From: Raineya orbicola | GTDB lineage: Bacteria > Bacteroidota > Bacteroidia > Cytophagales > Thermonemataceae | Direction of reading: 5' to 3' | Assembly (NCBI RefSeq): GCF_002843425.1 | Contig: NZ_NKXO01000016.1 | Span: 1-64,000, forward strand | DNA: 64,000 nucleotides | Shown here: piece after piece, positions 5,540-14,693 of the stretch | Position numbering within the stretch: the first letter of the stretch is position 1 | How the letters are laid out: each line of letters starts with the position of its first letter | Notes under the pieces: model-generated | Told to the model about the DNA's origin: nothing | The model's database searches: none | The model's input: only the letters and a program-made list of their open reading frames with translations | Translations under genes and position numbers: made by a program

Positions 5540-8500
5540 CTAAGTTGTTTTAGCAGTATTTGTGCAGCAAGATTGCTCCACCACCTTGATTTCCTCCTCC
5601 GTTAAGCCGTAAAGCTCATAAACTAATTGGTCTATTTGGTTTTCCTCTGCTTGCGTGTCTTCGCCTCGCTCTTTTTTGGCAAGTATCTGCTCTACCAACG
5701 CCATAAAGGGCTGTTGAGCGGTTTCAGATATGGGGGGAATGGGTATGTTTTCAAAAAATATCTTTCGTAGCTCTCTTGTGCCGCCTTGTAGTTCGGGGCA
5801 GTTTTCACGTATCCAGCGATGTGATATTTTTGAGTTAAAATAACCAACCAAAAACTTTAATGATATAGAATTACTTGTAAGAATAAACCCTTTGTCGTTG
5901 ATAAAATGCCCTTTATCATCAAAAATAAACGGCAAAAACAGCGTCATATTGGGATAGATAATCTTCTCCTTTTCAAATTCTTGGATATAGGCACAGTTGC
6001 GAAGGTTTGTCCAATGGTCTCCTTGGTCTTGGCGTTTGATAAGTTCTTTTTCGTATTGCAGTAAATGCTTGTAAATGGCAGGGTAATCTTTTACCACATC
6101 AATTCTCGGAATATTTTTTTCTTTCACGCCGTTGTGCGTATTTATCAACCACAAATCCTGCCATTCGGCTCGGTAGCGTTTGATGTCTCTGCCTCGCAGA
6201 ATGGGTTTGATGATTTCGGCACTTTTGGGGTCTTGGGCAATGAGTTCGGCTCGCTTCTTACCGTCTATGATAAAGGCTTCGTTGTAGCCGGTTAAAATGC
6301 CCCGATAAATGTTTATGTCCCATTCTTTGAGCGGTTTGCCAATGCGTTCTATTTTGGCTTTGATGCTTAGCTCTATGGGGCTTGCAATCGTCCAACTTTC
6401 GTCTTTTTGGGGGTTTATTTGAAGGGTTTTGTGGTGGTAGGCTTGGAAATTGTTTATCTTTTTTTCTTTACTGATGTCTAGGGCATCAAAGGGGCGATGA
6501 TAGGCTTGTTTTTTGAAAATCAGGATATTGGAATCTACGGTAGCTTCTTCAAATACGCCGCTTCCCAAGTCTATGAGTAGCTCGGGCTGGGTGTGTGTAA
6601 GGAAAAAGTTGCGAGTGGTTTTTCCGTAGCCTGCCCGCATCCATTTATTGGAAGTGATGAACGCCAAGAATCCGTTTTCCCGAAGAATTTGGTATCCTTT
6701 TTCGTAAAATAGCGAATAGATGTCGCCTGTTTTTTCGTAGGTTTTGTAACCAAAGCGTTTGAGTTGTTCAGAGGTTTCTTTCATTGCTTGCAGTTGGATG
6801 TACGGCGGATTTCCGATGACCACATCAAAGCCCACAAAATCGCCGTTTTCATTGAGTACTTCGGGAAACTCAAATCGCCATTCAAAGGCATTTTCAAAAA
6901 TCTTGTTGGATTTGATTTCTTCAATTTCGTTTTCCAATTTTCGGATTTCAAGTGCAAGTGTTTTGGCTTTTAGTTCTTTTTCTATCTTTTCTTTTTCTGA
7001 AAGTTCAAAGACTTGGGTTTGATTCATTAGAGTGAATAAATCACCTTCAAGTTTTCGCTTTCGGACGAGTTTGGGGTCTTTGTTGTAGATTTCTGTTCTA
7101 AAATCGGACTTAATATTGGCAATCAGCCGTTCCATTTCTCGCTTTTGTTCTTTGCTTTGGGCGTTTCGGTAGGTGGCAACGGCTATTCGGTAGGTATCAA
7201 TGCTCCATTTGCTTTTTTTGAGGGCTTGCCGTAGGTCGGCATCCAAGGCAAAACGGCTCACGAGTGAGTTTCCGCATTTGATGTTGATGTCAATGTTCGG
7301 AAGTGTTTCAAGTTCGGTTTCGTTCTTGTAATATGCATTTTTCAAAAGCTCAATCCACAAACGCAACCGGCAAATTTTTACGGAGTTGGGATTGATATCC
7401 ACCCCGAAAAGGCAATTTTCAATGATGGTTTGCTTTTCGTGGAAAAGGGTTTCTTGTATGCGTTGGCTTTCTTTGTTATTGGGGTTGTATTCAAAAATTT
7501 CCCCGTTTTCGTCGGTTACGATGAGTTCGTCGTTGAGTACTTCTATTTCGTATCTGTGTAAAGATTTTCCGTCCTTGTCTTCCAATATCTTCAAATCATT
7601 TTTTATTGCTATGATTTCATTCAAGGCACTTACCAAAAAATGCCCCGAACCTACGGCAGGGTCGCATATTTTTAAGGAATTGATGATTTGATTGGCTTTT
7701 TTTCTTGAAATTTTTTGAGGAATCAACTCATAAATATCTTCAATCTTGCTAATCCCATAATCAGGAAAATCATGGTTAAATTTCTGCACCACAGCTTTGC
7801 GAATAGTTTCACGGCACATATACATCGTAATGAAACCGGGGGTAAAAAACGAACCCTCTTTGTAGCCGTTTATTTTCTCGAAAATCAATCCAAGAACCGA
7901 GGCGTTAATGAGTGTTTTGTTATCTTCCTGAATTTCCTCAACGCCTTCGGCTCCGAAGTCGTAGGCATCTAAGAACTCAAACAAATATTGGAGCGTGGGA
8001 ATATTGCCTGTTCGTTTTTTGCCTTGCAGGTCTTTGAGCACGGTTTGCGAAAAAATTGGAATGGTTTTATCGTCTTTTAGGTTGCTGATAAAGATGGTGG
8101 CGTGTTCGAGTTCGGTTGGCTCGAAAAGCGAAGAATTGAGATAAGGAACTTTCTCAAAAATCTTTTTTACGTCTTCGTTCCGTTCGTCATACTTGCGTGC
8201 CAAGACCTGAAAAAACAAGCTGTTCAGGTCGTCATAGTTTTTGATTTTGTCAAGATTGAGAAACGAATAGGATTTGTCGCCTTTGTGATAGGTGATGAGT
8301 TGAGCTTCGAGCAGTTTCAAAAACAAAATTCGGTTTATCCAGGTAATAGCAAGTTCAAGGGCAACATTGAAAAGTCTTTCTTCGTGTGTATTGCCGAATT
8401 GTTCTGATTTTTCCAATCGGCTGATTTTATCTAAGCTATCAAGCTGAATGATAGCATCTTCAAGAATAGTTCCTGTGTGTCGTTCGCCGGGTTTGTTTCG

Positions 8501-9319
8501 CTCGATGAGTTTTTTGCCGCCTTCTTTGGTTTCTGTTAGTCCGATAATGTGCAACAACTCGCTGTAGAAGCGTTTGTCGAGGCTGTTGCTGTCGTTGGTA
8601 AAAGGAAGTTTTAAGAGATGCTCAGGGGAAAGCAGTTTGAATAAGGCAATCAGCGAATTATCGTCTGCTTGGTCGTTGTTGCGTAAAGGTTTCTGAAAGT
8701 CTTGAATGTTGAAGTAAGTAAATTCAATTTCAGATGTAATGCCGTTGATAAATGGCTCGGCAATTCGTTTATAGAAAAACTCGGTTTTGGTATCTGCCAA
8801 CCGTCCCGCTTCAAAGTCGTTGAATTGTTTTACAAGATTTTTGTTTTGGGCAAAAAGTCTTTCGAACAAGGTAGCATCAAAAATGAACCATTCGTAAATG
8901 TTGGTCGCTATTAAATGTTTTACTTCAAGGTTTTTGTGTGTAATTCTTTCACGCAAGTAATACAGCACCAGTTCCTGAAATGCTTTTTTATTGATGTTTT
9001 CACGGGTTAGCATTTCGGCTTTGTTAGTTGTTTTTTTGGTCTCAATAATTACACCAACGGAAGATTTCGCTGTATCGCTATTGTGTATGACAAGGTCGTT
9101 TCTGCCTTTGGTATTGATAAAATGATTTGGTTCGTAATAAGTTTTCTTCAAAAAGTCAATCACAAGGTTTTTATGAAACTCTTCGCTTTCGGTATCATTT
9201 ACTCGGTCGAGTAAAGTAATGAGATGCGTCTTGAAACTTTCAATTTCAGCCCTATGGGGTTTTACTTTAAGAAAGGCTTTGTTGAGAGCCTGTTTGGGGT
9301 TCAATTCTTTCAAAGTCAT
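5540..9319 (-). CDS. Type IIG restriction-modification enzyme (fused nuclease, methylase and specificity)
   Basis: The single 1259-residue chain contains all three R-M functions. Near the N-terminus, RNDLVIHN (D75) followed by VGVIIETKK (E93, K95) fits a PD-(D/E)xK nuclease. GSFFTP (491-494), DPAVGSGH (553-560) and NPPY (837-840) are N6-adenine methyltransferase motifs of the Eco57I type. The C-terminal third, with GILTGYNEAF and ILRGRDIKRY, resembles TaqI-like target-recognition domains. It would both methylate and cut DNA at one recognition site. The gene lies 86 bp after the KITE gene of the SMC operon on the same strand, so the two systems may be co-transcribed. Its end is only 18 bp from the convergent HTTM gene. 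The recognition site cannot be read from sequence. Confidence 0.88.
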   Translation of the reverse strand: MTLKELNPKQALNKAFLKVKPHRAEIESFKTHLITLLDRVNDTESEEFHKNLVIDFLKKTYYEPNHFINTKGRNDLVIHNSDTAKSSVGVIIETKKTTNKAEMLTRENINKKAFQELVLYYLRERITHKNLEVKHLIATNIYEWFIFDATLFERLFAQNKNLVKQFNDFEAGRLADTKTEFFYKRIAEPFINGITSEIEFTYFNIQDFQKPLRNNDQADDNSLIALFKLLSPEHLLKLPFTNDSNSLDKRFYSELLHIIGLTETKEGGKKLIERNKPGERHTGTILEDAIIQLDSLDKISRLEKSEQFGNTHEERLFNVALELAITWINRILFLKLLEAQLITYHKGDKSYSFLNLDKIKNYDDLNSLFFQVLARKYDERNEDVKKIFEKVPYLNSSLFEPTELEHATIFISNLKDDKTIPIFSQTVLKDLQGKKRTGNIPTLQYLFEFLDAYDFGAEGVEEIQEDNKTLINASVLGLIFEKINGYKEGSFFTPGFITMYMCRETIRKAVVQKFNHDFPDYGISKIEDIYELIPQKISRKKANQIINSLKICDPAVGSGHFLVSALNEIIAIKNDLKILEDKDGKSLHRYEIEVLNDELIVTDENGEIFEYNPNNKESQRIQETLFHEKQTIIENCLFGVDINPNSVKICRLRLWIELLKNAYYKNETELETLPNIDINIKCGNSLVSRFALDADLRQALKKSKWSIDTYRIAVATYRNAQSKEQKREMERLIANIKSDFRTEIYNKDPKLVRKRKLEGDLFTLMNQTQVFELSEKEKIEKELKAKTLALEIRKLENEIEEIKSNKIFENAFEWRFEFPEVLNENGDFVGFDVVIGNPPYIQLQAMKETSEQLKRFGYKTYEKTGDIYSLFYEKGYQILRENGFLAFITSNKWMRAGYGKTTRNFFLTHTQPELLIDLGSGVFEEATVDSNILIFKKQAYHRPFDALDISKEKKINNFQAYHHKTLQINPQKDESWTIASPIELSIKAKIERIGKPLKEWDINIYRGILTGYNEAFIIDGKKRAELIAQDPKSAEIIKPILRGRDIKRYRAEWQDLWLINTHNGVKEKNIPRIDVVKDYPAIYKHLLQYEKELIKRQDQGDHWTNLRNCAYIQEFEKEKIIYPNMTLFLPFIFDDKGHFINDKGFILTSNSISLKFLVGYFNSKISHRWIRENCPELQGGTRELRKIFFENIPIPPISETAQQPFMALVEQILAKKERGEDTQAEENQIDQLVYELYGLTEEEIKVVEQSCCTNTAKTT

Positions 9320-9405
9320 TTACAAAATCTATTTTTAACGTAAGTATAGAAATCACAAAAGCCTATGTTAGGCATATCAGTGTACTTTTTTGCAAGTATA
9401 AATTG

Positions 9406-9936
9406 TTATTCATTCAGCTTGGCTAATTTGTTTGTTGCTATCTCTTTGGCAAACTCAAAGAACAAATCTACGGCTTTTGTAAATTCAAAAGTTTCCTTGC
9501 TGTTGTCCAACTTGATGATGTTGCGTTGGTCTAACTCTTTCAAAAACTTTTCTATGCCTTCTTCTTTGAGTTCGATGAGTCTAAATATGTCGCTGTACGT
9601 TGAGTTTTCTAAAAGAGTTTGAATTTCAAGGACTGAAAAACTTCCATTTTCTATGCGGTCTTTGATGTCTCTGCCTTGTAAATTCCACTCGTAACAAAGA
9701 ATGGATAAGATAACCGTAAATCGTTTTGAAAATTCTTCACTCGTGTTTTTTGATAACAAATAAGCAAATTCCTTTCTCAAAACCAATTCATAACCAAAAC
9801 TTTCCTTGAAAAAAGCCTTGTAAAAATCTTGTTCTTTTGTCAAAATTTCAAAATGAACTTCGTTCCGGAGGATAAATTTTCCTTTGAGCAAATCATTCAC
9901 TATTTCGTAGTGATATTTGGGTGCTTCGAAAGTCAT
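9406..9936 (-). CDS. KITE/MukE-like subunit (JetB/MksE-like) of the SMC defence operon
   Basis: This 176-residue, helix-rich protein has no motif I can name. It is assigned by position: its ATG overlaps the stop of the kleisin-like gene (ATGA), its size matches small MukE/JetB winged-helix subunits, and it closes a four-gene SMC operon. The segment TVILSILCYEWNLQGRDIKDRIENGSF, taken as a whole, looks like a winged helix, with another helix-turn-helix-like stretch further on (EEGIEKFLKELDQRNIIKLD). KITE subunits normally bind the kleisin and DNA. Direct similarity is not evident by eye. Confidence 0.55.
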   Translation of the reverse strand: MTFEAPKYHYEIVNDLLKGKFILRNEVHFEILTKEQDFYKAFFKESFGYELVLRKEFAYLLSKNTSEEFSKRFTVILSILCYEWNLQGRDIKDRIENGSFSVLEIQTLLENSTYSDIFRLIELKEEGIEKFLKELDQRNIIKLDNSKETFEFTKAVDLFFEFAKEIATNKLAKLNE

Positions 9937-11204
9937 TTTTTCAAAATTTTTAGGAGAATTTTGGGTACTTCTAAAATCAAATCTGCTAAACAGATTTCAA
10001 CTTTTTCAGGCTCAAAAACAGTTTCTAACCGTATGTGAAAATCTTTTTCAAATTCTTCATCTAAAAACAACAAAGACGAAATCGCAAAAAACTTTTCAGC
10101 ATTGATGTTTTGGATGGCTGTTTCTTGAAGTTCCGCTTGTAAAGAATTATAGCACCATTGAAAAAAATTATCAATCGGCAAATCTTGAACGAGTTTTTTC
10201 TTGTAGTAATTTTTAGTTTCCAGGTCAAAAAACCAAGTATCAGAGACTTCGTTTTTAGTAGGTTGTAATACAAAACTTTCACTTTCTTGTAGTCTTTCGC
10301 ATAAAAATTTGGCATCTTGTCCAAAACTTTCAGAGTACAAAGTATGATTTAGCCTTGTGTTTTCAAAAAAGGCTATTTGTGGCAATTCTTCTGATTTTTT
10401 CAAGCCTAACGCCACTTGCCTAATGTCTTCCAAATAAGCAATAGCACCCGATAAAATTTGGCTTTCGCTTTTGATACGTTCTGCCAAAGGCAGGAGTTCT
10501 TTTGAAATGATAGCCGAATTTTTCAACACTTCATCAATGATATTTTTAGAATATAAGTACAAAGTAGCGAATTGATTACGAATTTCAAAACGTGGATATT
10601 CGTACTGCTGTCGGCTTGCAAAATCACTTATTCGGGTAAGTTCCTGATAAACAGAATGTGGATTTTCTCGTTCTAAAATATCATTCAAAGGAATGATGTA
10701 GTTTTCAATCCAATAACTCGCTTTTCGAATTTTATCCAAATAATCAATTTGAGAAAGATTGCTTTTGAGTTCTCTTGTTTCTTTCAGAAGTTGTCGGGTT
10801 CGGTTTTCTATGATTTCGCTAAATTCTTCTATTTCACTTACCAAACTATTTATCAAATCATTGACTTTGTTATGTTCTTTTTCTTGCAGAAGTTGCGTAT
10901 AATAATTGGCAATAGAAACTCGGTATTTATCTACACTTTCGTGTAAAGGCATAGCATAGTCGCTGAACAAATGCGACAAAAACTGCACATAAACCGAAGG
11001 TAAATTATATTCGTTATTACGTTGCTCTCTTACAATTCTATACTCTTTCAACGTATCAAAAGGTACTTCAAATTCTCTGCAAATATCTTTTAGAGTTTCT
11101 TCTTTGATAAAAAAATTAGTCTGTTTGGCAATAGAAAAAAGTCTATACACAAAGTCATAATAGCGGTGTAAAAATCCTAATATACTTTTTCCGTTAATGT
11201 TCAT
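9933..11204 (-). CDS. Kleisin/MukF-like subunit (JetA/MksF-like) of the SMC defence operon
   Basis: I place the start at the ATG at 11202-11204, which overlaps the upstream TGA as ATGA; a longer frame reaching 11264 runs into the TOPRIM gene and is less likely. The 423-residue product is almost all helical with long amphipathic stretches (for example SLVSEIEEFSEIIENRTRQ and RELKSNLSQIDYLDKIRKA). This fits MukF/MksF/JetA kleisins, which are about 440-500 residues. No catalytic motif is visible, as expected. Translational coupling on both sides supports a stoichiometric complex with the SMC, TOPRIM and KITE genes. The family call rests on size, fold impression and operon. Confidence 0.6.
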   Translation of the reverse strand: MNINGKSILGFLHRYYDFVYRLFSIAKQTNFFIKEETLKDICREFEVPFDTLKEYRIVREQRNNEYNLPSVYVQFLSHLFSDYAMPLHESVDKYRVSIANYYTQLLQEKEHNKVNDLINSLVSEIEEFSEIIENRTRQLLKETRELKSNLSQIDYLDKIRKASYWIENYIIPLNDILERENPHSVYQELTRISDFASRQQYEYPRFEIRNQFATLYLYSKNIIDEVLKNSAIISKELLPLAERIKSESQILSGAIAYLEDIRQVALGLKKSEELPQIAFFENTRLNHTLYSESFGQDAKFLCERLQESESFVLQPTKNEVSDTWFFDLETKNYYKKKLVQDLPIDNFFQWCYNSLQAELQETAIQNINAEKFFAISSLLFLDEEFEKDFHIRLETVFEPEKVEICLADLILEVPKILLKILKK

Positions 11205-12010
11205 AGGTTTATCAGTAGGCTTTCTTGCTCTAAAAATTTCTGTTTGGTCTGCAAATCTTGGCAAATTTTCAAAACGATTTCATCTTGTGAAGCCAACACA
11301 TATTTTGAGGCTTTTTGTCCTTTTTTGCGGTTGAGTGTTATTTCTTTGGCGTATTTCTCAAAAAGTAAATCGTAATTTTCAGGCACAAAGAAATTTGTAT
11401 TTTCAAAAACAGATTTGCACTTCAAGTATTCATTCAACCCAATATAGTCATAGTCTGAAAAAATAAGCACCTCATTTGTCTGTATTTTCTCTAACAAGTT
11501 TTTACCAATTCTTCCGTAAGAATGAACAAAAACATAATCTTGCGAAATTACTTTTTCGGCTTGCAAAAAACTTTCTTTGTTTTCTACAAAGCACAATTTT
11601 TCGGTTTTCAGACTTTCTAATACACAAGCAAAAAAGCCAAATTTTTTTGTATATTCTTGTAAATCAATTATTTCTTTATTAACTTCAACTTGTTTATTTC
11701 CTTTCAGAAACACAATTACCGATTTTTCCTTGCTTTTCTTACTATCTTTCAATTTAGCAATACTGCTTGCTCGGTTTATAACTTCGATGTCTGCATTTGG
11801 GAATTTTTTAGCAAACCAATTTTCAAAAACTTGTCTTTTCTCTTTGTTCAACTCATAAACGTAGCCACGCCCTACACTTGATTTCAACACTATGCCACTA
11901 TCTAACATATTTTGAAAGTCGTTGCACTCTAAAAAAGTTTTTGGAACTGATTTAGATTGCAATTTTTCAGTTTTGAGTAATTGAAAATATTTGAGTAAGG
12001 TTTCAGTCAT
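11201..12010 (-). CDS. TOPRIM nuclease subunit (JetD/MksG-like)
   Basis: The 269-residue protein ends in a recognisable TOPRIM fold. CFVENKESF (catalytic Glu143) is followed by VFVHSYGRIGKNLLEKI and then EVLIFSDYDYIGLNEYL, with the D186-x-D188 pair. This arrangement matches the C-terminal domain of JetD and DUF2220 proteins, which cut DNA extruded by the SMC motor in Wadjet. The N-terminal 120 residues would be the arm/wing domain. At 269 residues it is shorter than typical JetD. Its ATG overlaps the 3' end of the SMC gene by 8 nt, and its TGA overlaps the kleisin ATG. Confidence 0.75.
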   Translation of the reverse strand: MTETLLKYFQLLKTEKLQSKSVPKTFLECNDFQNMLDSGIVLKSSVGRGYVYELNKEKRQVFENWFAKKFPNADIEVINRASSIAKLKDSKKSKEKSVIVFLKGNKQVEVNKEIIDLQEYTKKFGFFACVLESLKTEKLCFVENKESFLQAEKVISQDYVFVHSYGRIGKNLLEKIQTNEVLIFSDYDYIGLNEYLKCKSVFENTNFFVPENYDLLFEKYAKEITLNRKKGQKASKYVLASQDEIVLKICQDLQTKQKFLEQESLLINL

Positions 12011-14693
12011 TGTATTTTCGGGTTTTTCCTGTGTGGGTTTCGTCCAAAACTACCTTTCCTTTATTTTCGGGCGAAGGTCGCATAAAGTAGTATTTTTCAA
12101 AGCCGTAGCCCATAATATTGGCGGCGAAAATGGTAATAAAACCATTGTCTTTGCAGAACTGCACCAATTCACCAATATTTTTAGGGTCAATCGTGAGTTC
12201 ATCAACAAAGAAAACGACTTTATTTTCTTCGCTATCCACCTTGAAATATTTGATAATGAGCAAAAACAAAATCAGATTTATCATTCGGATAGTGCCTGTA
12301 CTTTCGTTTTGCTTTTTCAAGTCAATTTCCTTTTTGCTACCGTCTTCGTACAAAGCATCAATTTTGATACTGAACAGTTCCTCAAATTCATAAACTCTTG
12401 ATTTGGCACTGTTCAAATACTCATCAAGTTTTTGCAAGCCTTGTTGTTGTTCTTGGTCGTTGGTATCAAAAATAAGTTCTTGGGTTTGCCCAATATTTAG
12501 TTTTTCTACCTTACTTATCAAGGTGAGTTCTTTGATAAAACTTTCATTATCAATGATTTTTATTGTCATTTCTTTGATACGTGAAATAGGATATTTCCGC
12601 ACCCAATTATTGAACTCACTAATAAAATCTCGTTTGAACTCTTTGTATTCCTTCAAATAAGCCAAAACAGGGTGAATGATTTGGTTAGAAATGATTTTCA
12701 GGTGTTCCTGTTTTTGTTTTTCTCTTTCGGCAATGGCTTCCAATTCTTTGCCTACGTTTTCAATAAAATCTTTTTCATAGGCATATTCTCGTCCTGATTT
12801 GTTTTTCAGGTCGTTGAAAAGGCTGTTTTTTATCCTTTCCAATTCTTTGTAGTCGTGAATTTGCTTGCGAAAATCGGTTAAAAAGAGTTCTAAATCTGAA
12901 ATAGGAATGTAGTTACAAACCAATTCAGGCAATTTTTCTTCTGCAAAAATCTTGTTGTTTTCCACAAGTTTCTCTAATTCTTTTTCGTATTTTGCTTTCT
13001 GTTGGTTGTGATTTTTAATCAGATATTTATTGTCCTTAATTTGCTTTTCAATCGTTTCAAAGGCTTTATTTTTTTCGTCAAGTTGCTTGTTAAGGCTTTC
13101 AAGTTCTGTGCTTAAAACTTTGATATTGTTTTCGTTGGGTTCTTTAAGTTTTACTTTTTCAATTTTTTTGATTTCGCACTCTTTTTCATTAATTTTGCTT
13201 TGAAGTTCGTTTTTCTTTTTTTCAAAATCAATGCTGTATGGCAAAGCCTTTTTCAACTCGGAAATTTCGTTTTCAGTTTGCTCCAATTCGTCTTGCAATT
13301 CGGTAAGGGTCTTAATTTGTTTAGGACTAATAGCTGAAATATCAATTTCACCGTCAAAAATTTTCAGCAAATCAGTAAAATTGGTAATCTGTTTTACCAA
13401 CTTCCCTTTATCCAAAACATCTTGCGAAAGCAAGGCATTGAGTAACTTTTGCTTTTCTACATCTTGTGTAATATTGAAAAGCAGCAATCTTTCTTTGCCT
13501 TCTATATTTGTGATAAGGCTTTCTTTTTTCTTTTCTGAGTCAGCTAATTTATTGCGAATTTGTGCTTCTGAAAGTTGGTTTTTGGTTATGTTTTGCAAGT
13601 AATAATTAAGTTCATCAATTTGCTTGTTTAGATTTTCAATTCGTTCTTCAAAATTTTTAATCAAACTTTCCGTAGGCAAATTGAGCGGATTGAGCAAGGC
13701 AATTTCACGTAAAACAATTTCTGATTTTTCAATGGCTTCTTTCTTATTTGAAACTTCGTTTTCCAATTTTTGCGTCTCTTTGAGCAATTTATCTCTATCA
13801 GACTCTATTTTTTCATTCAATTTTTCGTACATATCCGCTTGTTCTTCTGCGTGCTTTATTTGTAATTCCAACTCTTGAGTACGTTTGTTAAAATACTCGT
13901 TGAAAGTATAGAAAAGTTGCCCTATTTTTTCTTTTTGTAATTCAAAACGCACCATACAATCCTTAAAAGCTTCAAAATCTTCTTTGATACTTTTAAAGAG
14001 TTCTATGTCTTGGTGAATTTTCCTTAACTGAACAAGGCTATCCTTTTTGGTATTGTCTGCAAAAACTTTCAAAACGACATTTTTGCGATTATTAGCAATA
14101 ATTAACGCCTTTTGCAGGCTTTCGGCATTGATAGATTTGGAATTTATCAAATGTTGATAAATTTCAGCAAACATTTCTTTACGCTGCACTTCATTTTTAA
14201 GCCAAACTACCGCATTTTTGCTTTGGTCAAAACTATAAAACTCATCAAATAATTTAGCTTTATCTAACTTTCGGTAATTGATACCATTGCTCAAAAGATA
14301 GTCTATAAAAGTCTGAAAGTCTTTAATTTTTCCGTTTTCTTCAAAAAAAGTTAGTTCGTCAAAAGGAGCATCTATTTTATAGTATTCCAATTCGTCAATT
14401 TTGCGTTTAAGTAAGATGCAATAATATCCGCCTGCTTTCCTTTTGAAGTTTTCAAAAACGATATAACTGTTTTTGTCAGAAGGAAAAAGGTGGTCAAGAG
14501 TTTGTTTAAAGTTATACTTGTCATTGTCAAACGACATATATTGCTGTTTGATACAATACAAAAAATTGAGTGTGTCAATCAGCGTAGTTTTGCCGATTTG
14601 GTTTTCACCCACCAACTGAATAGAACTTTTGTCAAGCGTAATAACTGCTTTTGCGTGCTTTTTAGAGTTGAAAATCGCAATCTTTGAAATCAT
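12003..14693 (-). CDS. SMC/MukB-like ATPase (JetC/MksB-like) of the defence operon
   Basis: The 896-residue protein has an SMC layout. A Walker A motif, GENQIGKTT (29-37), is followed by a long charged coiled coil (about 230-700) rich in Glu, Lys, Asn and Leu. An ABC-signature-like STGTIRM lies near 798, and a Walker B VVFFVDELT lies near 826-833 (D831, E832). No Zn hook CxxC is seen. At 896 residues it is much shorter than MukB and near the size of MksB. It is the first gene of the operon, so the order is SMC, TOPRIM, kleisin, KITE, unlike canonical jetABCD. The likely role is DNA loop extrusion that recognises plasmids or other invading circular DNA. Confidence 0.8.
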   Translation of the reverse strand: MISKIAIFNSKKHAKAVITLDKSSIQLVGENQIGKTTLIDTLNFLYCIKQQYMSFDNDKYNFKQTLDHLFPSDKNSYIVFENFKRKAGGYYCILLKRKIDELEYYKIDAPFDELTFFEENGKIKDFQTFIDYLLSNGINYRKLDKAKLFDEFYSFDQSKNAVVWLKNEVQRKEMFAEIYQHLINSKSINAESLQKALIIANNRKNVVLKVFADNTKKDSLVQLRKIHQDIELFKSIKEDFEAFKDCMVRFELQKEKIGQLFYTFNEYFNKRTQELELQIKHAEEQADMYEKLNEKIESDRDKLLKETQKLENEVSNKKEAIEKSEIVLREIALLNPLNLPTESLIKNFEERIENLNKQIDELNYYLQNITKNQLSEAQIRNKLADSEKKKESLITNIEGKERLLLFNITQDVEKQKLLNALLSQDVLDKGKLVKQITNFTDLLKIFDGEIDISAISPKQIKTLTELQDELEQTENEISELKKALPYSIDFEKKKNELQSKINEKECEIKKIEKVKLKEPNENNIKVLSTELESLNKQLDEKNKAFETIEKQIKDNKYLIKNHNQQKAKYEKELEKLVENNKIFAEEKLPELVCNYIPISDLELFLTDFRKQIHDYKELERIKNSLFNDLKNKSGREYAYEKDFIENVGKELEAIAEREKQKQEHLKIISNQIIHPVLAYLKEYKEFKRDFISEFNNWVRKYPISRIKEMTIKIIDNESFIKELTLISKVEKLNIGQTQELIFDTNDQEQQQGLQKLDEYLNSAKSRVYEFEELFSIKIDALYEDGSKKEIDLKKQNESTGTIRMINLILFLLIIKYFKVDSEENKVVFFVDELTIDPKNIGELVQFCKDNGFITIFAANIMGYGFEKYYFMRPSPENKGKVVLDETHTGKTRKYND

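Follow-up and report, generated by a model that had tools for sequence, protein, structure and literature searches.

A compact MksBEFG/Wadjet-like operon in Raineya orbicola, probably directed against plasmids, from a condensin family that carries a TOPRIM nuclease in only some of its members

We found in Raineya orbicola a four-gene operon that we read, with good confidence, as a small condensin of the MukBEF/Mks type that carries a TOPRIM nuclease like JetD or MksG and acts on plasmids. By analogy with type I Wadjet and MksBEFG, it is probably a plasmid-destroying defence, and its sequences point to a previously untyped compact variant of MksBEFG/Wadjet. The operon lies in the window, which is the whole stretch of DNA analysed (64,000 nucleotides, contig NZ_NKXO01000016.1), taken from a genome of 3.07 Mb that is 99.8% complete. 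The operon and the features that follow it are listed below.

12003..14693, minus strand: SMC gene, 896 aa, intact ORF
11201..12010, minus strand: TOPRIM gene, 269 aa, intact ORF
9933..11204, minus strand: kleisin-like gene, 423 aa from a conserved ATG, in the MksF/JetA position
9406..9936, minus strand: KITE gene, 176 aa, MksE family
9361..9373, minus strand: terminator-like hairpin and T run directly after the KITE gene, prediction only
5540-9319, minus strand: type IIG restriction enzyme-methyltransferase (DUF7149-DUF7814-Eco57I, PADLOC 1051 bits)

All four ORFs are intact, lie on the minus strand and follow one another as SMC-TOPRIM-kleisin-KITE. An earlier sequence-only reading had described them as coupled genes, and all ORFs were indeed found in place with an overlap at each junction: 8 nt between SMC and TOPRIM (12010-12003), and an ATGA both between TOPRIM and kleisin (11204-11201) and between kleisin and KITE (9936-9933). 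The kleisin-like ORF could open with a TTG and would then encode 443 aa; relatives conserve the start at 11204, an ATG, from which the protein has 423 aa. The catalytic motifs, read directly from the translations, are all intact. The predicted hairpin suggests that the operon ends before the type IIG restriction enzyme gene, which lies directly downstream, and promoter-like matches were at chance level. The description of the subunits as small is true relative to type I Wadjet of the same phylum, in which the SMC protein has ~1130 and JetD ~380-400 aa. The identical four-gene order, with 75-92% protein identity, was present in four named genomes besides this one, and the order recurs in several lineages further away; given this conservation the arrangement is more than chance. 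The named relatives are Cytophagales, Chitinophagales and 'Sphingobacteriales' records; the viral contigs, phages and plasmids searched contained no relatives.

The KITE protein matched the Pfam MksE family (PF21980) at 8.2e-22 and the NCBIfam MksE model at 2.2e-8, and aligned with type I JetB in hhalign (E 9e-9, probability 96%). A sequence search against solved structures gave no relevant match. These profiles assign it to the MksE family. The TOPRIM protein carries E143-N144, D186YD188, G191 and a C-terminal LEQE, and its catalytic triad is kept in every nuclease-bearing lineage. The window protein matched Pfam DUF7281 at 4.5e-4 and JetD_C at 0.0056, with no relevant match to solved structures by sequence. 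Its kinship with JetD, proposed beforehand, was upheld by profile comparison: the family profile aligned with type I JetD (hhalign, E 3e-6, probability 88%), pairing the E-N, DxD-x-x-G and LEQE residues, and the TOPRIM protein of one relative (L101) exceeds the Pfam JetD_C cut-off. The catalytic core is thus homologous to that of JetD. Type I JetD is longer by ~110-130 residues, and therefore the CAP-like domain of the window protein would be small or different. Residues 19-69 show a winged-helix-like pattern in a low-confidence AlphaFold2 model (pLDDT 40).

The SMC protein has a Walker A motif (GENQIGKT, 29-36), the signature ESTGT and a Walker B motif (VFFVDE, E832), in agreement with the earlier motif claims, which also named E143 and D186-x-D188 of the TOPRIM protein; the key residues of the head are invariant or nearly so across 21 relatives. 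It has no CxxC zinc hook. An invariant G448 is located near the exact middle of the protein, and a small hinge would sit around it. Matches of the window SMC protein to Pfam were weak (AAA_29/SMC_N), and by sequence it had no significant match to JetC or to solved structures. Its relatives score better, with DUF3584 at 1.5e-9 and JetC models down to 1e-8; the typed Jet models gave only weak matches in the SMC family, shared with other ATPase families. A profile match between the SMC protein and JetC was discarded as evidence because it was confined to the coiled coil. Taken together, the window SMC protein appears to be a compact MksB/JetC-like ATPase.

The kleisin-like protein appears to have a winged-helix-like N-terminal domain (~10-75) and long central helices. 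It matched no Pfam family, ScpA included, and had no significant sequence match to JetA or solved structures; profile comparisons with JetA and with a long-SMC kleisin were not convincing. AlphaFold2 models of this protein and of the TOPRIM protein were built from alignments of five close homologs, and the kleisin model was poor (pLDDT 46). Residues 4-83, the confident part of this poor model, superpose on a MukF structure (9gm7_C; 79 residues aligned with Z 7.5 and rmsd 2.8 A), a hint that the N-terminal domain is MukF-like. Foldseek with the two models gave nothing below E 0.5; the weak matches include MukF, MukEF and JetABC chains, and are a hint only. The kleisin assignment, which would rest chiefly on position, on the weakly MukF-like N-terminal domain and on the helical make-up, is the least certain of the four. 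Thus, of the folds proposed earlier for the two smaller core subunits, the KITE holds as MksE by its profile matches, whereas the kleisin is left with a weak MukF-like superposition of its N-terminal part from a poor model.

The model comes from type I Wadjet and MksBEFG, where the SMC core detects small DNA circles by extruding loops and thereby allows the TOPRIM nuclease to act (PMC10586767, PMC10123090). Every component for such a mechanism appears to be encoded in the window operon, the kleisin least certainly. Most probably, the kleisin would close an SMC dimer that also bears KITE dimers, and the complex would load on DNA and reel it in using ATP; on small circular DNA, extrusion would complete or stall, and the TOPRIM dimer, then freed from inhibition, would cut the plasmid. 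We infer loop extrusion, size sensing, cleavage and plasmid targeting from type I Wadjet and MksBEFG. That the shorter SMC arms and shorter TOPRIM protein change the DNA size sensed is speculation.

MksBEFG of Corynebacterium glutamicum and Pseudomonas, which is the type I Wadjet JetABCD, likewise combines SMC, kleisin, KITE and TOPRIM in one operon, and shares with the window an MksE KITE and the TOPRIM core and LEQE of JetD. The two differ in gene order (mksFEBG (PMC10123090) as opposed to SMC-TOPRIM-kleisin-KITE), in SMC length (896 aa in the window, 1111 in C. glutamicum, ~1130 in type I loci) and in TOPRIM length (269 aa versus ~380-400 for type I JetD). MksBEF and MukBEF have the core subunits in common with the window family, whose operons are mostly nuclease-free and of three genes; their order is F-E-B, whereas that of the window family is SMC-kleisin-KITE with a very divergent kleisin and SMC, and the window operon adds a nuclease. 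In two distant compact operons of the same phylum (L043 and L044; SMC ~940-960 aa), all four subunits are homologous to those of the window at profile level, but the order is the canonical kleisin-KITE-SMC-TOPRIM and identity is just 16-22%. None of the four window proteins matched the typed PADLOC Wadjet I-III Jet models, and the PADLOC models miss this lineage. The proposal of a separate lineage of anti-plasmid condensins therefore stands in so far as the operon appears MksBEFG/Wadjet-related and falls outside PADLOC types I-III, while its action on plasmids would follow from analogy. In the open-access literature searched, we found no account of the order SMC-TOPRIM-kleisin-KITE or of a nuclease-toggling family.

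The gene order was surveyed by searching the window's GTDB class (395 genomes) with a kleisin profile. The profile matched 53 of the 395 genomes, and most kleisin-positive loci were three-gene SMC-kleisin-KITE operons without TOPRIM. Where a TOPRIM gene is present in SMC-first operons, it occupies a single fixed slot between SMC and kleisin. This four-gene form is sporadic (window, L007-L010, L050, L097, L101, L102 and L103); the TOPRIM profile matched 11 of the 395 genomes, five of the matches being full-length and directly beside a compact core. Distant compact kleisin-KITE-SMC operons without TOPRIM were also found (L098, L099, L105 and L119). The order that the sequence-only reading had remarked on is real, but the class-wide survey shows it to be that of a compact MksBEF-type three-gene operon with a nuclease in one fixed slot rather than a reshuffled Wadjet order.

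Several further loci were observed during the survey. Genome G716 has an operon of each kind: L106 lacks the nuclease gene and L097 contains it. In the same genome, L097, a compact SMC-first module, and L107, a long-SMC kleisin-first module of a different lineage, are both preceded by a gene for a WYL-domain regulator and followed by SbcD-SbcC-like genes, as if one condensin module could be swapped for another within a common frame. L107-L112 and L041 represent another Bacteroidota lineage with an SMC protein of 1227-1235 aa; L107-L112 have the order kleisin-KITE-SMC-TOPRIM and a short TOPRIM protein (~285 aa; that of L107 passes the Pfam DUF7281 cut-off), and no TOPRIM gene was recognised adjoining L041. 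L053 (G390, 6706-12213) resembles type I JetA-JetB-JetC, but no JetD gene was recognised in the 17 kb examined, and it is possibly a nuclease-free type I operon. L042 and L048 encode an SMC protein of 1056-1080 aa and, in the JetD position, a short protein of 305-317 aa that did not match the type I JetD profile. A lone TOPRIM gene of the window family (L104, G807, 6578-7522) lies near a 1462-aa ORF whose start resembles a Cas9 RuvC motif; the kleisin-KITE-SMC operon of G807 is on a different contig.

The operon proteins of the window clade are more similar than their hosts. Identities to the window were ~89-91% for L007 (RpoB 82%), ~87-90% for L008 (RpoB 78%), ~84-89% for L009 (RpoB 69%) and ~74-77% for L010 (RpoB 69%), and no flanking genes were common to the operons in the pairs of relatives compared. 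Operon identity above that of RpoB, together with unshared flanks, indicates recent horizontal transfer. Neighbouring genes of the relatives include a DdmD-like ORF directly after the operon of Thermoflexibacter ruber (L007; 6260-9424, PADLOC DdmD 1.7e-23) with a TmtA-like ORF in the same neighbourhood, an MvaI/BcnI restriction system (L059), a PD-(D/E)XK nuclease (L008) and a WYL regulator upstream of the operon (L097). The window-type operon thus looks like a mobile defence. As an observation on L007 itself, two candidate anti-plasmid systems stand there side by side.

A defence of this kind could instead be anti-phage, with the operon supplying a Lamassu- or Gabija-like pair of SMC/ABC ATPase and nuclease. 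Restriction genes next door would suit such a role, Rad50-like ATPases are known to recognise DNA ends, and the SMC family gave weak LmuB, AriA and GajA profile matches, that of the window protein to LmuB being just 0.031. Lamassu (LmuABC) and SbcCD/Rad50 do resemble the operon in joining an SMC-like ATPase to a nuclease, but the operon differs from them in having no LmuA or LmuC, no metallophosphatase and no CxxC hook. The true MksE KITE, the JetD-type TOPRIM protein, the four-subunit condensin make-up and the DdmD-like anti-plasmid helicase adjoining L007 also argue against the anti-phage role, which we consider very unlikely.

The nuclease-free relatives have a different setting. Their neighbours are housekeeping genes, chorismate synthase and signal peptidase among them, and they are vertically inherited. 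Outside the window's order, none of the 49 kleisin-positive genomes of the class had ScpA, as against 7 of the 46 kleisin-negative genomes (Fisher p 0.005, relatedness ignored); the other 39 kleisin-negative genomes lack ScpA and the compact SMC alike. The nuclease-free compact complex may therefore be the working condensin of its ScpA-less hosts, a role that is suggested rather than proven since many genomes of the class lack ScpA. In the window's order, ScpA is encoded in the nuclease-bearing genomes (G000, G059, G147, G081 and G883). The window's host encodes ScpA away from the operon, so that the operon is not its only condensin; the operon's own kleisin-like protein is, by Pfam, not the ScpA of an Smc-ScpAB complex.

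These observations bear on a reading in which the window operon is a chromosome-maintenance condensin and the TOPRIM protein a topoisomerase-like or decatenation helper rather than an anti-plasmid nuclease. The vertical inheritance of the nuclease-free relatives beside housekeeping genes in ScpA-less genomes would be expected of such a complex, and in G790 and G773 the TOPRIM-bearing copy is the only condensin detected, so that these two copies fit pure defence less well. The window clade, however, is mobile, adjoins restriction or defence genes and has a host with ScpA, and most relatives are without TOPRIM, which is therefore dispensable for condensin function. Maintenance is accordingly an unlikely role for the window operon, and the anti-plasmid one is preferred. 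A broader and rather doubtful idea, which we put forward tentatively, is that one compact condensin family toggles its nuclease, even in place at a housekeeping site of the chromosome, so that the machine would alternate between folding the chromosome and restricting foreign DNA; where ScpA is lacking, as in G790, one armed complex may do both.

To follow the history of the nuclease, the SMC, kleisin and KITE sequences of 57 operons (12 nuclease-plus, 45 nuclease-minus) were joined for one tree. By parsimony, the presence of TOPRIM changed at least 6 times on it; when the labels were shuffled 1000 times, the mean was 11.1 changes and no shuffle gave as few as 6. Sister groups of plus and minus operons had full support (L097 with L096/L116, L101 with L118, L102 with L094, and L050 with L082). 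In genus g312 the same chromosomal site holds an operon with TOPRIM in G790 and without it in G635, G687 and G825; chorismate synthase and two further genes lie downstream in all four genomes, and upstream genes are common to G790 and G825. Junctions at the TOPRIM slot are clean and short, and no TOPRIM remnants were seen by eye in translations of five nuclease-free SMC-kleisin gaps. In an AU test with 12 taxa, the TOPRIM data rejected the core topology, a clash that may come from exchange among near-identical copies of the window clade; with eight representatives, one of them from that clade, TOPRIM and core accepted common trees, the TOPRIM tree having little power.

Repeated loss is the preferred reading of this history over regain, given that the position of the gene never varies and that TOPRIM is present in the outgroup with canonical order (L043/L044). 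A history of several gains, with the TOPRIM gene moved between operons by recombination, is a substantial possibility that we nevertheless do not favour. It needs 6 unordered changes where a no-regain model needs 15 losses inside the SMC-first clade, and it would fit the nesting of a single nuclease-plus genome, G790, inside one genus. Insertion every time at one position, leaving clean and short junctions, is less easily reconciled with it, as are the TOPRIM gene of the outgroup and, with little power, the agreement between TOPRIM and core trees on eight representatives. Several gains would concern the history only and would leave the preferred account of function as it stands.

The origin of Wadjet was described as unsettled in a 2023 review, in which Wadjet giving rise to MukBEF and MksBEF was called a tempting speculation (PMC10586767). 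A Hi-C study of two gut Bacteroidetes without a known condensin inferred an unidentified SMC complex (PMC10197239), and for other lineages of the class that lack ScpA, a compact condensin of the Mks type is a candidate. The main value of the family lies in its recurrent gain or loss of a nuclease, which offers a natural series for the conversion between defence and chromosome folding: with armed and nuclease-free operons as repeated sister branches, the transition between plasmid defence and condensin can be studied by adding or removing one gene.
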